From positions 62,001 through 126,000 of the forward strand of contig NZ_BLXX01000013.1 in NCBI RefSeq assembly GCF_014193515.1: a DNA stretch of 64,000 bases. The letters are read 5' to 3'. The stretch is from Geomonas silvestris (GTDB lineage Bacteria; Desulfobacterota; Desulfuromonadia; Geobacterales; Geobacteraceae). Position 1 is the stretch's first letter, and every line of letters starts with the position of its first letter. The notes under the pieces are model-generated. The model worked only from the letters and a program-made list of their open reading frames with translations, made no database searches and was not told where the DNA came from. Positions 48,548 to 64,000 of this stretch are shown one piece after another. The position numbers were made by a program, and so were the translations under genes.

Positions 48548-48576
48548 TTGACAGCACCGACGACTCGGGTTATAAA
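48548..48576 (+). promoter_or_regulatory. strong sigma70-type promoter of the propeller-lipoprotein leader
   Basis: TTGACA at 48548-48553 and TATAAA at 48571-48576 are separated by exactly 17 bp. It is one of the best matches in the window. A start near 48583 would give a 5' leader of about 230 nt that contains two terminator-bearing elements. Confidence 0.75.
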
Positions 48577-48601: not shown

Positions 48602-48668
48602 AAAAGGCTGACCAGAATACTGGAGGCCAGGCACGCAGCGACCCCGCTCGGCCTGGCCTCTTTTTTTT
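48602..48668 (+). promoter_or_regulatory. structured leader element with terminator, copy A
   Basis: The core is GGCTGACCAG-(4)-CTGGAGGCC. CCAG and CTGG form a tetraloop hairpin, and the outer GGC and GCC can also pair around a TGA/AG internal loop. GGCCAGGC then pairs with GCCTGGCC to make a terminator hairpin, followed by T-C-T8. The GCC of the first hairpin lies inside the 5' arm of the terminator, so the two structures compete at their base. Copies B (next) and C (61552-61617, other strand) keep the same design with different loop bases. Confidence 0.7.
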
Positions 48669-48686
48669 GGAGGGCAGTTTTTCGCA

Positions 48687-48758
48687 ACAACCAGATCAGC
48701 ATGCTGACCAGACACCTGGAGGCCAAGAGGGGCGACACGCCTTACTTGGCCTTTTTTT
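48687..48758 (+). promoter_or_regulatory. structured leader element with terminator, copy B
   Basis: This is the second tandem copy. GCTGACCAG-(4)-CTGGAGGCC is kept, with loop ACAC. GGCCAAG pairs with CTTGGCC, enclosing a further GGCG/CGCC hairpin, and seven T residues follow. It ends 57 nt before the lipoprotein ATG. The terminator stem differs in sequence from copy A, but pairing is preserved by compensating changes. Confidence 0.7.
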
Positions 48759-48815: not shown

Positions 48816-50525
48816 ATGAAAAAACTGTCCCGTCTCCTGTGGGCGGCGACCACCGTCGTCTCCCTCGCCCTGACCGGTTGCGGCAGCACGGCCGCCGGGC
48901 CGGCCAGCTCGCCGACCGCCAGCAACAAGGTCACCATCAACGGCTCGCTGGAGCCCGGCGCCGCCAAATCGACCGCGAAGAGTGCAGCTGCCACCAGCGG
49001 CACCATCGGCACGGTCAGCGCCATCGACGCAGCCACCGGCGCGGTACTGAGCGCCACACCGGCAAACATCGTCTCGGACGCGAGCGGTACCGGCGGCAGC
49101 TTCAGCGGGCTGAGCTTCACCCCTCCCAGCAGCCAGGCGGGGGTGGTCCTGAAGGCGACGCTTGCCAACGGCAAGGTCTATCGCGCGCTGATCGCCAGCC
49201 AGCTCGCCGCGGCAAGCACCGTGAACGCAACCGTCGGCCCCAACTCCGATGCCATCGTGACCGCGGTTTCCGGATCCCTTAACGTCGCCGGCGTTCTCGG
49301 GGACGACGGCGTGAAGGTTCCCAGCGGCACCAAGCTGGCCGACGTGGCAAGCGCGGTGACCAGCGCCTCCAGCGCGCTGCTGCCCAAGCTCCAGACCGGC
49401 TACGTGATCGACACCGGCGGTACCGGTTCGGCGGTCCCCGGGGTGACGCTCCTCGACCGGGTGGCGCAGGCAGCCATCAAGACAGTGCGCTTCACCAACC
49501 AGGTCGGCACCCGGATAGGCCACTTCGCCAACGTGACCGCCGACGGCTCTGAGCTCTGGCTTTGCAGCGGCCAGGGTGGCGCGAGCGGCTCCATGAACGT
49601 CTACGACACCGCCGCTTTCAGGACCTACAGCACGCTCAACGACTCAAACCAGGCGAGCTTCATCAAGCACTCCTTCCCGAAGGGTTGCGGCGTGCAGAAC
49701 GTGCAGTCTCCCGACGGCCGCTACATCTTCGCCTCGGTGGACCAGGCGCCCAAAGGGGTGAACGTCTTCGACGTGAAAAACCACGTCTACCTCGGCACCA
49801 TCGCCAACGGCAACACCGCACCGCACGTGGGCGCCGTCTCGCCCGACGGGAAGCGCTACTACACGACGACCGCCGGTTCCTTCCACGCCGTGGGCTACGA
49901 CATCTCCGGTCTTCCCGCCAAGGTCCCCGGCGATGCCGACAAGGTGCTGGACGTGAACCTTGGGTACGGAAACCTGCACGCGGTGCGGCTGCACCCCAAC
50001 GGCAAGTACCTCTTCGTGGGGAACAACACCTGGCCGGTCCCCTCGCCGCTACCCGCCGGGGTCACGGCGACCTCCGGCACCAACGTGATCGAGATCGCCA
50101 CCCAGAAGATCATCGCCACCATCCCGGGCCGGCCGCACAACTTCGCGATCTCGCCGGACGCCAAATACCTCCTGGTCACCGAGCTCTCCTCGCCGGATTG
50201 CGAGGTCTCGCTGCCGGGTGACCCCGGAAACCGACTGCAGTTCATCGACATCTCCACCCTGTCGGGCGCGGCGCCGGACGCCTCGAAGATCAAGGACATC
50301 TACCACTTCGATACCCCGGGCTACGGCGGCAGCCACGCCAGCTGGGATCCGACCACCGGCGTTTTGTACTACTCGGTGTACGACACCAGCAACCAGGGGT
50401 GGCTCTTCCTGCTCGACACCACAAACCTGGCGGCCGCCACGCCGAGCGTGACCCAGTTGGGCACCAAGCAGAAGATCGGCTGGGCACCGCACGGCGTGCT
50501 GTTCCCGGGGATCGACGGCGACTGA
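48816..50525 (+). CDS. lipoprotein with C-terminal beta-propeller
   Basis: This 569-residue exported lipoprotein has a signal peptide ending in the lipobox LTGC (Cys22). Residues 23-230 are rich in Ala, Ser, Thr and Gly, with a possible Ig/FN3-like fold (VTINGSLEPGA to LLPKLQTGYV). The C-terminal 330 residues show YVTN/cytochrome-cd1-type propeller repeats: NVQSPDGRYIFASV, GAVSPDGKRYYTTT, RLHPNGKYLFVGN and AISPDAKYLLVTE, spaced about 45-60 residues. Propellers of this kind bind ligands or partner proteins. CGAGGAGGTAGCA is a strong ribosome binding site. The gene sits behind the two leader elements and shares the region with an FN3-cytochrome lipoprotein. Confidence 0.85.
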   Translation: MKKLSRLLWAATTVVSLALTGCGSTAAGPASSPTASNKVTINGSLEPGAAKSTAKSAAATSGTIGTVSAIDAATGAVLSATPANIVSDASGTGGSFSGLSFTPPSSQAGVVLKATLANGKVYRALIASQLAAASTVNATVGPNSDAIVTAVSGSLNVAGVLGDDGVKVPSGTKLADVASAVTSASSALLPKLQTGYVIDTGGTGSAVPGVTLLDRVAQAAIKTVRFTNQVGTRIGHFANVTADGSELWLCSGQGGASGSMNVYDTAAFRTYSTLNDSNQASFIKHSFPKGCGVQNVQSPDGRYIFASVDQAPKGVNVFDVKNHVYLGTIANGNTAPHVGAVSPDGKRYYTTTAGSFHAVGYDISGLPAKVPGDADKVLDVNLGYGNLHAVRLHPNGKYLFVGNNTWPVPSPLPAGVTATSGTNVIEIATQKIIATIPGRPHNFAISPDAKYLLVTELSSPDCEVSLPGDPGNRLQFIDISTLSGAAPDASKIKDIYHFDTPGYGGSHASWDPTTGVLYYSVYDTSNQGWLFLLDTTNLAAATPSVTQLGTKQKIGWAPHGVLFPGIDGD

Positions 50526-59619: not shown

Positions 59620-61329
59620 CTACAGACCGCCGGTCAGGGAGGGCCGCCCGGAGGGCAACTGGCGCCAGCCGTCGGTGCTCCCCGGGATGAGCGGATCCTT
59701 CAGGTAGCTCGGATCCTCGATATAGGTGGTGCTCCAACCGGACCAGCCGTCGGAGTAGTTGCGGATGTTGCTGTAGCCCATGAGATAGGCGTAGAAGAAG
59801 GCGAGGCTGGAGCGGTAGCCGCCACAGTAGAAGATCGCCTCCTTGTCGAGCTTGGTCGGATCCACGGTCGAGGTGATCCCCAGCGAACTCCAGAGCGCCT
59901 TCACCTCCTCGTAGCTGCGCAGGGTGCCGTCGGCGTCGCGGTAGATGTGCGAGCTGTCGTCGGCGTTAGAGGCCCAGACCGCGTTCGGGATGCGCCCCTT
60001 GTTCACCAGGTAGCCGTAGCCGCTTAAGAGCCCCGCGTACTCGCCACCGGAGCGCACGTCGACCAACTGGGTCGTGCCGGTGGAGGCGTAGTTCGCCTCG
60101 ACATAGGGGGTGCTCGCGATGAAGGACGGATCGATGCTGCCCGTGTAGCTGGTCGGCACCGGGAGGTTAACGGCGGTCTCGACCGGGTAGCCGGCGGCTT
60201 TCCACTGGGTCATGTCGCCGTTCATGAAACGGACGTCGGTTACCCCCGCGTACTTCAGGATCCACCAGAGCCGGGCGGCGAAGATGCTGCTGTCCGAGTA
60301 GACCACCACGGTGGTGCTGCGCTGGTGCTCCCCGGCTTGTGGTAGTCGATGAGCGCCTTGACCCAGGCCGGGTAGACCGCCGTCGCGTAGTTGGGCGCTT
60401 TCTCCATCGGGTACGAGGTGTTGCCGGCCCAGTCCCAGATCGAGGCGTCGTAGTTGGAGCAGCGGGTGTACCCCATCAGGCGCAAAAGGAAGTAGGCATA
60501 CCCGGAACGGATACCTGCGGTGCAGTGTGCGGTGACTTCCTTGTCCGGCGTGATGCCGTGGGACTCCAGGAGGCTCTTCAGCGCCGTGTAACTGAGCGTG
60601 GTCTTGTCGGAGTTGTAGAACCAGCCGTAGGGGATGTTCACCGCCTTGGGGATATGCCCGCCGCGGGTCTCGCCGTAGAGCTGCCACCCCAGGTACTCCT
60701 CGTCGGTACGGGTATCGATGACGGCAAAGTCGTTATCAAAGAGCCTGGTGGCGATGTGGGCCGAGTCGGTCTTGGCGGCGGCGTTCAGCTGCGGCGTGAA
60801 GGTGGCGGCCGGCAGGGTTACCGCGGTCGTCTGCATGCTGCGGTTCTCGGCGCTCCACTTGCCCCAGCCGCCGTTCAGGATATGGACATCCCGGCACCCC
60901 AGGTATTCCAGCATCCAGAAGACCCGTCCGGCGGATCCCCACGATGCGGTGGTGTCGTCATAGACGACGATCTTCTTGTCCCGGTCGATGCCGGCAGCAC
61001 CTAACATGCCAGCCACGACGGTGGTGTCTTTGAGGCCGCTCCCCTTGGTCCAGAAGGCACTGTGCTGAAGTTGATGGCGCCCGGGATGTGCCCCGCGCCA
61101 TACGCCGCTGCCGAACGGGTATCGATAATCACCAGCCCCTTCCCCAGGCTTTGTGCAGCGACTCCCCGGTGACCAACAGTCCTGCATTGGGAAACTCGGT
61201 AGATGCCGCTACCAGACGCACGTCCTGTGACTGTCCCGTCTTGTCGGTAACGGTACTGCCGCATCCGGCCAGTACTGCCACACTCACAGCAAGCACCAGC
61301 ATCACACATCGAAACATTACACCTCTCAT
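59620..61329 (-). pseudogene. multi-rhodanese lipoprotein, interrupted by three frameshifts
   Basis: Read through, this is a lipoprotein of about 570 residues. It starts at the ATG at 61329 (AGAGGAG upstream) with a signal peptide ending VLAGC. Rhodanese modules follow: VIIDTRSAAAYGAGHIPGA; an inactive loop VVYDDTTASWG; VIDTRTDEEY with the active Cys in AHCTAGIRSGYAYF; an inactive VVYSDSS loop; and LVDVRSGGEY with the active Cys in FYCGGYRSSLAFF. The frame breaks at about 61135-61146, 61053-61068 and 60327-60335. Each is restored by adding one base; the first and third lie in or beside runs of four G/C. The protein sequence on each side is otherwise conserved. Either the gene is recently dead or the assembly has base errors here. 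Confidence 0.8.
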
Positions 61330-61551: not shown

Positions 61552-61617
61552 AAAAAAGGCCAGATCCAACCGCTGCATCGGTGGGATCTGGCCTCCAGTT
61601 TTCTGGTCAGCCTTTTG
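61552..61617 (-). promoter_or_regulatory. structured leader element with terminator, copy C
   Basis: On the minus strand it reads AAAAGGCTGACCAG-(4)-CTGGAGGCC, then a 10-bp terminator stem GGCCAGATCC/GGATCTGGCC with a 16-nt loop, and seven T residues. The first 14 bases match copy A. The tetraloop is AAAA. It lies about 220 nt before the rhodanese-lipoprotein start, inside a leader of about 320 nt. Compared with copy A the terminator stem sequence differs but still pairs. Confidence 0.7.
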
Positions 61618-62514: not shown

Positions 62515-63357
62515 TCAAATCGCGGCGCCGTCACGTACCAGTCCGCACTCCAGCTCTTCGGTTATCTCGCTCCATTTCTGCAGCCAACCGGCAAAGGCTT
62601 CCGGGGGAAACGGTTGCGGCACAGCAGGAACGAGTCCCTGGGCCACCAGTCGGGCGAGCTTGCGGTACACGCTGCTCAGATGTGACTGTGGTGCCGACTC
62701 GACGACCGACTGCTTCAGGTACTCGCCTGCCGATACCATGAGCGAGTGCGGAATCGAGGCAAAGGCGCTGGTGCCGGTCCGGCGCAAGAAATCGTCGACG
62801 ATGGACTCGAAGAACGATCCGGTGATGTTGTTCCCTACGAGGCCTCCGTAGCGCCACCCCAAAGCGGCACCTGCCGCGAAGAACTCGAGAAAGAGATTTA
62901 AGGTGGTGAGGGCGCCGAAATCCGCCGAGACCACCACGATGACCCGCGCCGCCTCCCCCTCGGTGCGCAGGAAGGGAAGCACGTCCGTGGGCTCGCCCGA
63001 GATGTCGTGCACCACGAAGTCGGGACGGTAACGGTCCAGCAGTTCCAGGCGGCAGAGGGCGCCGAACTCGGGAGTGGCATCGTTATCCGCCGCGGCGCCG
63101 CATTCCACGCAGAGGATGTCGCGGTACCCCTGCGCGCACTGCAGCCGTGCAGCCTGGCAGGCGGCCTCACCCGCGAAGCCGCACCCGGTCTCGAGCGCGC
63201 TGTCACCGCGCAGCAGCGCCGACGAGAGGTGACGCCGGTCGTAGCCCAGGTGCGCCACACGGTACCCATGCTCCGCGAGTGCCGCGCTCAGGTTCACCGC
63301 AGTCGTGGAGACACCTGCGCCGCTTTTCCCGGTGATAATGAGATGTTCTGCTGCCAT
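62515..63357 (-). CDS. NifH/ParA-like protein lacking the P-loop lysine
   Basis: This 280-residue deviant-Walker-type ATPase resembles nitrogenase Fe protein. The P-loop reads GKSGAGVSTTAVNLSAAL (residues 10-27): the N-terminal signature Lys11 is present but Val16 replaces the P-loop Lys. VCVE-type strand ILCVECGAAADND and GALCRLELLDRY resemble the NifH segment that holds the first cluster Cys. The second cluster position, DISGEPTDVLPFL, lacks the expected Cys. It is therefore unlikely to be a normal Fe protein; it could bind nucleotide without turnover. GGGAGCAGGT precedes the ATG at 63357. It sits between DUF2325 and the hydrolase. Confidence 0.82.
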   Translation of the reverse strand: MAAEHLIITGKSGAGVSTTAVNLSAALAEHGYRVAHLGYDRRHLSSALLRGDSALETGCGFAGEAACQAARLQCAQGYRDILCVECGAAADNDATPEFGALCRLELLDRYRPDFVVHDISGEPTDVLPFLRTEGEAARVIVVVSADFGALTTLNLFLEFFAAGAALGWRYGGLVGNNITGSFFESIVDDFLRRTGTSAFASIPHSLMVSAGEYLKQSVVESAPQSHLSSVYRKLARLVAQGLVPAVPQPFPPEAFAGWLQKWSEITEELECGLVRDGAAI

Positions 63358-63453: not shown

Positions 63454-63765
63454 TCAGGCCGCAGCCTCACCCTCCCCCATGATACCGGTTTTCACGCAGG
63501 CGAGGCAGCTCCTCAGTGCGCAGACGCCGCAGTTGTGGCACTGCAGCACCGGGATGTTGCGCGAGTGGGCCGCGTCCATCACCTGCAGGCGGGCGCGGTG
63601 CGAAACCTTTCCGGTAAAGAGCACCACCGCTTCGCTGTGCCCCAGCTTCGCCTGCAGGTCCGTCTCCGAGCGGTTGAAGATACGCAGCTCGACGCCGAGC
63701 TTCGCCGCCTCCTGGCGGTAGTGCGTCTGCAACCTGTCGATGCCGCCTACCAGCGCTATGCGCAT
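63454..63765 (-). CDS. DUF2325 protein with cysteine-rich tail
   Basis: This 103-residue protein of the DUF2325 family starts MRIALVGGIDRLQTHYRQEA and keeps the VVLFTGKVSHRARLQVM segment. The C-terminal 30 residues include CHNCGVCALRSCLAC, five cysteines suited to a metal or Fe-S site. Relatives are often found near nitrogenase-like genes. Here it lies 96 nt upstream of the NifH-like gene. AAAGGAGGATCGCC is a strong ribosome binding site for the ATG at 63765. Confidence 0.88.
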   Translation of the reverse strand: MRIALVGGIDRLQTHYRQEAAKLGVELRIFNRSETDLQAKLGHSEAVVLFTGKVSHRARLQVMDAAHSRNIPVLQCHNCGVCALRSCLACVKTGIMGEGEAAA

Positions 63766-63837: not shown

Positions 63838-63902
63838 TCTCCCCGGAGGGGACTGGGATGGGCGAAGCTGCCACCATGCAACGAGGTGGCACCTTCCCCA
63901 TC
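63838..63902. repeat. REP-like family B copy
   Basis: CTCCCCGGAGGGGACTGG is followed by GCGAAGCTGCCACC and its partner GGTGGCACCTTCCCC. It separates the DUF2292 fragment from DUF2325. Confidence 0.65.
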
Positions 63903-63911
63903 AATCTGTCT

Positions 63912-64000
63912 CTAGATTCCGCTTCCGTCGCGGTGCTCGTTCTTGAACCTGAACTTCTCGTTACGTTCGATCTGGATGACCCGTCCGTCCTGGACCACCA
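63912..64000 (-). CDS. DUF2292 (YezD-like) protein, 3' fragment
   Basis: Only the last 28 or so codons are inside the window; the start lies beyond 64000. The visible sequence, VVQDGRVIQIERNEKFRFK followed by NEHRDGSGI and a stop, matches the DUF2292 core strand pattern (QDGRVxQIERxEK). These small proteins, usually 50-70 residues, occur in operons for sulfur compound uptake in other bacteria. It is on the same strand as DUF2325, 146 nt upstream of it across a REP-like repeat. Confidence 0.6.
   Translation of the reverse strand, partial: VVQDGRVIQIERNEKFRFKNEHRDGSGI

Follow-up and report, generated by a model that had tools for sequence, protein, structure and literature searches.

The locus raises the question of why the gene of a lipoprotein in Geomonas silvestris should be preceded by two transcription terminators placed in series. 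Within the window (the whole 64,000-nucleotide stretch of DNA that was analysed), the initial annotation had seen the same design twice over, between a near-consensus promoter and the start codon of a propeller lipoprotein: a short hairpin followed by a terminator with 7-8 T residues. This organization was confirmed: a tandem pair of hairpin-plus-terminator elements separates the promoter from the start codon at 48816. The features are as follows.

48548..48576, + strand: promoter of the lipoprotein operon, TTGACA-17-TATAAA, with 11 of 12 consensus bases
48607..48628, + strand: conserved hairpin of element 1, GCUGACCAG-AAUA-CUGGAGGCC, proposed antiterminator and candidate protein-binding site (covariance model R1, 39.3 bits)
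48623..48668, + strand: intrinsic terminator of element 1, overlapping the 3' strand of the hairpin and ending in T8
48703..48724, + strand: conserved hairpin of element 2, GCUGACCAG-ACAC-CUGGAGGCC (covariance model R1, 34.0 bits)
48720..48758, + strand: intrinsic terminator of element 2, overlapping the 3' strand of the hairpin and ending in T7
48816..50525, + strand: controlled gene, encoding a beta-propeller-like lipoprotein of 569 aa with 5 Cys+Met after the start (0.88%); the propeller match is weak and below cut-off

The terminator arms of element 1, GAGGCCAGGC (48623-48632) and GCCTGGCCTC (48651-48660), are 100% complementary and run into T8 at 48661-48668, while those of element 2, AGGCCAAG (48720-48727) and CTTGGCC (48745-48751), run into T7 at 48752-48758. 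As had been noticed, the arms are unlike in the two copies and still pair, and the 3' end of each hairpin lies inside the 5' arm of its terminator, the hairpins ending at 48628 and 48724 and the terminators beginning at 48623 and 48720. The third copy that had been counted was found at 61590-61611 on the (-) strand. In DNA form, GCTGACCAG-N4-CTGGAGGCC occurs at these three hairpin positions and is absent from all 100 dinucleotide shuffles made of the window. The whole genome holds four copies of the pattern CTGACCAG-N3/25-CTGGAGGC (1 match for the reversed control pattern), the fourth lying outside the window. The automated promoter scan omitted the 48548-48576 promoter, as it required a T at position 6 of the -10 box, and the automated terminator scan omitted the terminators of elements 1 and 2, presumably because of the bounds it sets on loop length and on interruptions in the stem. 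The same propeller lipoprotein is found beneath single or tandem copies of the element in relatives (L053, L060, L091, L092).

The elements belong to a family with the consensus [G/A]CUGACC[A/G]G-N4/5-C[U/C]GGAGG[C/U], whose conserved part spans about 22 nt, variable loop of 4-5 nt included, and whose 3' strand doubles as the base of an intrinsic terminator. A tight pattern was detected in 58 of 196 relatives, with its reversed control in 1 genome; a loose pattern was present in 76 of the 196, its matches with a long gap being mostly due to chance. When a T-run was required, at least 119 stretches of a public genome collection matched, against about a dozen expected by chance on our own estimate. 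Element matches come from Geobacterales, Bacillota (such as Moorella, Tissierella and Bacillus), Treponema, Nitrospirota, Armatimonadota, Omnitrophota and others. The covariance-model search took in 95 of the 119 T-run loci, the remaining ones being Geobacterales places already covered, and its 199 matches, minus repeats, gave the 191 elements analysed here. The initial annotation could assign the design to no known riboswitch class, and Rfam 15 agrees with it: no family attains its gathering score, whether in the window or over the elements in 20 + 19 further loci, none of the known riboswitch classes, SAM riboswitch models included, matches the elements of the window and of these 39 loci, and at a permissive threshold only chance-level matches fall over the elements. 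Membership of a riboswitch class was therefore rejected, and, within the stretches scanned, this RNA family lies beyond every Rfam 15 model.

The pairing of the hairpin was analysed on 74 aligned sequences, five doubtful hairpins (L103, L115, L131, L162, L202) out of 79 having been excluded from the model alignment. The UGACC, C and GGAGG columns do not vary. The paired substitutions that had been proposed as a check are present: the inner stem pair changes from A-U (66 sequences) to G-C (6), with G-U in 2, and the outer pair from G-C (50) to A-U (15), with G-U in 4 and no pairing in 5. Paired cells amount to 98.6% in the hairpin, a value that 0 of 500 shuffles equalled, vs 95.2% in shuffled alignments, and slid versions of the pairing are only 7-47% paired; covariation thus extends beyond the terminator stem. 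Two of the five covariation measures, double-change pairs and pair types, were reached by 246 of the 500 shuffles. Variants with CCGG/CCGG were first found directly 3' of DUF2292 genes in genomes devoid of the tight pattern.

How the hairpin relates to the terminator was apparent from the bases that they share. A terminator starts inside the AGGY of the hairpin in 182 of the 191 elements, the opposite strand giving 34 and shuffled sequences 23; as part of this set was chosen with a T-run, the fair figure is 84 of the 88 elements not selected in this way, in which the terminator starts in the hairpin's own 3' strand. The shared Y pairs both with the R of the hairpin and with a second R in the terminator. 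Across the 191 elements, the three positions read G-C-G in 134, A-U-A in 27, G-U-A in 6, A-U-G in 5 and A-C-G in 3, the other 16 being unresolved, without terminator or mixed. That this pyrimidine changes together with both of its partners is what one expects of pairings that exclude each other. In 181 of 182 elements the terminator state is predicted to be the more stable one, with a median advantage of 10 kcal/mol, so that the default should be off and read-through should need a factor. The elements lie 5' of genes, and not mainly 3' of them as plain terminators would: an ORF of at least 80 codons begins 21-400 nt downstream of nearly every element tested. A terminator between promoter and gene and an alternative pairing that excludes it are both present, and these data, together with the largely sulfur-related genes downstream, support conditional transcription termination, as the initial annotation had suggested.

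The genes under the element point to sulfur metabolism. Inspection by eye and Pfam identified PAPS reductase, ATP sulfurylase, cysteine synthase, serine acetyltransferase, Cys/Met PLP enzymes and SAM synthetase, as well as sulfonate/taurine-type ABC transporters, rhodaneses, TauE, NifH-like and radical SAM proteins. The Pfam tally, which covers 124 of 176 downstream proteins and is drawn from the 25 listed of 95 families, comprises ABC_tran (12), NifH-like (8), radical SAM (8), SAM synthetase (6), rhodanese (6), NMT1 (5), PAPS reductase (4) and PALP (4); ATP sulfurylase, serine acetyltransferase, TauE and a Cys/Met PLP enzyme were confirmed as single members. Some downstream genes, which in Tissierellales encode secreted proteins, S-layer-like ones among them, show no obvious link to sulfur. 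Sulfur was among the signals that had been suggested, and it fits best. An extracellular electron transfer regulon, guessed from the lipoproteins and the clustering of the copies, was abandoned when the genes under the element turned out to be concerned with sulfur. Clostridia-like genomes (L097, L147, L155, L171, L174, L206, L210) carry a divergent DUF2292 branch, with the ending ...EEIKKSIKL, ahead of the element; at several of these loci secreted or S-layer-like proteins come next, with no evident sulfur role.

Many of the controlled proteins are themselves poor in sulfur. In 76 element-controlled proteins of Geobacterales the median Cys+Met content is 1.75%; for 87 background genes it is 3.00% (Mann-Whitney p 2e-6). 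Contents under 1% are found in 23 of the 76 vs 2 of the 87, one of these two being the propeller gene itself. The rhodanese frame of the window, with 3.23%, is an exception to the rule. In other phyla, 43 element-controlled proteins have a median of 2.34%, a figure that comes without a background set. The element is present at 3 of 3 accessory metK loci vs 0 of 16 housekeeping metK loci (E <= 0.01), and genomes with an element-controlled metK hold it as a second copy. The accessory MetK contains 2-3 Cys+Met in about 400 residues and the housekeeping MetK 15-20 in 387, as read in 15 of the 16 (the MetK of L259 escaped the motif used for reading). Accessory metK genes of L058, L066, L078, L088, L054 and L200 encode a striking low-sulfur isozyme, with a normal MetK alongside in the genomes checked. 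Two porin-like proteins under the element, of 490 and 455 aa (L085:2223-3692 and L077:8471-9835), contain a single Cys/Met after the start and are possible low-sulfur outer-membrane porins.

At many loci, a gene encoding a protein of 50-80 residues from DUF2292, the family to which OscA belongs, lies immediately upstream of the element; for 47 of the 191 elements, a same-strand DUF2292 gene is found no more than 400 nt upstream (median 22 nt). We compared the presence of the element (E <= 0.001) with that of PF10055 (DUF2292) in the 196 relatives: 58 have both, 9 the element only, 10 DUF2292 only and 119 neither. The corresponding figures are 13/0/0/6 in the organism's own genus and 27/0/2/19 in its own family. 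Concordance within the order is 126 of 141 genomes, and the maximum over 20,000 within-genus shuffles of DUF2292 is 106. One of the nine relatives with the element only, G064, has six covariance-model matches and no PF10055 hit. DUF2292 is also encoded in 59 of 66 genomes found by the element alone and taken as outside Geobacterales, one of which (L159) is placed only as Desulfuromonadales. Among the seven without it, four are the genomes of hairpins already set aside as doubtful (the fifth doubtful hairpin, L115, is in a genome that has DUF2292), and two others (L152, L210) have a DUF2292-like frame beside the element, below the Pfam threshold. By comparison, DUF2292 was present in 6 of 185 genomes of a class sample centred on Methylotenera, centre included, and in 1 of 14 control genomes.

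In Geomonas silvestris itself, element 3 and a DUF2292 gene are found near the end of the window, in the order solute-binding protein, DUF2292, DUF2325, NifH-like protein, hydrolase, element 3 and rhodanese.

60255..61329, - strand: gene of a rhodanese-domain lipoprotein, downstream of element 3 (Pfam match on the open part, 60258-61187)
61552..61594, - strand: terminator of element 3, GGCCAGATC/GATCTGGCC, T6
61590..61611, - strand: conserved hairpin of element 3 (covariance model R1, 41.3 bits)
62515-63357, - strand: gene of a NifH-like protein, between OscA and the hydrolase of element 3
63454-63765, - strand: gene of a DUF2325 protein, between OscA and the hydrolase of element 3
63915..64000, - strand: 3' part of a DUF2292/OscA-family gene (62 aa), its start lying beyond the window at the equivalent of 64100

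The DUF2292 protein scores 68.3 bits in Pfam against a cut-off of 22. With the NCBIfam OscA equivalog model it scores 44.4 bits (E 1.2e-11), below the cut-off of 85, and is a relative of OscA rather than a called equivalog. No solved fold matches the predicted OscA structure (pLDDT 77.5, pTM 0.50). In the assembly, the frame of the rhodanese lipoprotein is broken, with its ATG at 61327-61329 and an open frame only from 61187; a relative (L061, L104) has the protein as one frame of 648 aa, and the break is a frameshift or an assembly error. A long inverted repeat (GATGGGGAAG-GTGCCACC ... GGTGGCAGCTTCGCCCATC) without T-run lies at 63840-63910 (-), just 3' of the DUF2292 gene.

According to PMC2996968 and PMC3596284, OscA is a small protein that takes part in the response of Pseudomonas corrugata to sulfur starvation and whose function is unknown; YezD, the DUF2292 member of Bacillus subtilis, is given as unknown in PMC6385201 and PMC10714963. 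The family adjoins the element; among the matches listed from the open-licence literature, none links OscA, YezD or DUF2292 to an RNA element or to RNA binding. On the evidence of co-occurrence and gene neighbourhood, we infer that OscA binds the hairpin. OscA-dependent antitermination in sulfur starvation is the best reading of our data and the one we regard as probable. By default, AGGY at the end of the hairpin would join the strong terminator and transcription would stop. When sulfur runs short, the DUF2292/OscA-family protein would accumulate and bind the RCUGACCRG/CYGGAGGY hairpin on the nascent RNA, probably through its UGA/AG internal loop. Bound OscA would keep the two outer base pairs closed and withhold AGGY from the terminator, and RNA polymerase would then read through into genes for sulfur scavenging and low-sulfur replacement proteins. 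Two copies in series, as in front of the propeller lipoprotein, may give a tighter off state and a steeper response. The data support the RNA part of this scheme well; which factor acts, and in which direction, we infer.

OscA, the element and accessory target paralogs (a second metK, for example) are gained and lost together, so that their co-occurrence may partly reflect the inheritance of one sulfur module. Because of this joint inheritance, tracking alone does not prove contact between OscA and the RNA, which is the main weakness of the OscA reading; the argument from co-occurrence is also weakened by a check on whether ordinary targets are retained, minus the element, in genomes lacking OscA: for metK, it revealed that the controlled gene is a second paralog.

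Comparison with known leaders helps to weigh the other factors that might act here. In RAT leaders, protein binding stabilises an antiterminator, an imperfect hairpin overlapping an intrinsic terminator. The element resembles these targets of BglG, SacY and LicT in its short imperfect hairpin, its internal loop and the overlap of its 3' part with the 5' arm of the terminator, and the logic proposed for OscA is that of BglG/LicT-type antitermination with an unrelated protein. The architecture also recalls that of ANTAR leaders (NasR, AmiR, EutV), in which one or more hairpins precede and overlap a terminator and a trans-acting protein causes antitermination. These likenesses suggest an alternative in which another trans factor (ANTAR, BglG/LicT-type or a NusG paralog) reads the hairpin and OscA acts elsewhere in sulfur metabolism; the nine relatives with the element and no PF10055 hit are in keeping with it, and bglG-cis-reg is the only weak Rfam match over element 1 (17.7 bits vs a cut-off of 80, E 1.1). 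However, the sequence differs from that of RAT leaders, no PTS or sugar genes are involved, and the CAT_RBD domain is found in 0 of the 196 relatives, own genome included. ANTAR motifs are paired hexaloop hairpins, whereas each terminator here has one hairpin with a loop of 4-5 nt, and ANTAR proteins occur in 174 of the 196 relatives, with and without the element, and hence do not separate the two groups of genomes. Proteins of the BglG/LicT and ANTAR types were both rejected as the factor on these counts. The LoaP-dfn system is similar in that a small leader hairpin recruits a protein for terminator read-through, but according to PMC12691694 this RNA is a UNCG-type hairpin read by a NusG paralog in polyketide operons, and the sharing of bases with the terminator is not among the properties described there. 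We consider control by such another factor unlikely.

A very small riboswitch, in which the hairpin binds a sulfur metabolite and OscA is merely a member of the same regulon, would account for the highly conserved internal loop, the terminator overlap, the sulfur genes downstream and the tandem copies, as seen in some riboswitches. Nevertheless, 22 or so conserved nucleotides, variable loop included, are small for an aptamer. A riboswitch also need not track a protein family, whereas concordance with DUF2292 exceeded that of every within-genus shuffle and the gene adjoins the element in many phyla. The initial annotation's comparison with riboswitches is thus less likely than its conditional termination, which stands, and we find a riboswitch distinctly unlikely here. 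Known leaders of methionine genes that act by transcription termination are the S-box (SAM-I), reported before metIC and metX in Geobacter (PMC545781), and the metXZ element of beta-proteobacteria (PMC4239095). Both are far larger RNAs with other structures. The sign of control is left unfixed by the same sequence data, and OscA bound to the hairpin might promote termination as a repressor in sulfur plenty, or the hairpin might mainly delay or pace RNA polymerase. Yet closed outer pairs take AGGY from a terminator whose state is already the more stable, and oscA is overexpressed under a chromate exposure linked to sulfate starvation, as described in PMC2996968; such a role therefore appears quite improbable. 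Finally, all the copies in the window are closed by a standard terminator, as would be an ordinary unregulated attenuator with a decorative hairpin. The near-invariant UGACC...GGAGG across several phyla, the covariation with both partners, the sulfur-gene context and the tracking of DUF2292 make this last explanation hardly credible.

Returning to antitermination by OscA, conditional termination is a known kind of control, in which the RNA element is new and the protein probably so. DUF2292/OscA may well represent a new class of small RNA-binding antiterminators, acting through one conserved hairpin on a sulfur-starvation and sulfur-sparing regulon in several bacterial phyla and switching on replacement proteins almost free of Cys/Met, such as a second SAM synthetase and, here, a surface lipoprotein. 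If so, a small protein whose name comes from nothing but a mutant phenotype would gain a mechanism, and an RNA family missing from Rfam a signal. Many hypothetical genes of Geobacterales, Bacillota and spirochaetes could be assigned to the sulfur-starvation response by their leader alone, one testable switch would govern the low-sulfur replacement proteins, and builders of gene circuits would have a useful component in this compact, protein-controlled terminator.

Element-like hairpins were also observed 3' of DUF2292 in Gammaproteobacteria, the class of G244 (L247, E 2.9e-5; L245, E 0.0025; L243, E 0.089 with two non-standard pairs). They were not counted as members of the family, nor were the gammaproteobacterial L244, L246 and L248, which gave no full hairpin match. 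The hairpins of L243, L245 and L247 have no visible U-tract, so that either another mode exists or the element differs in this class. Their GGAGG could act as a ribosome-binding site, which hints at translational control.
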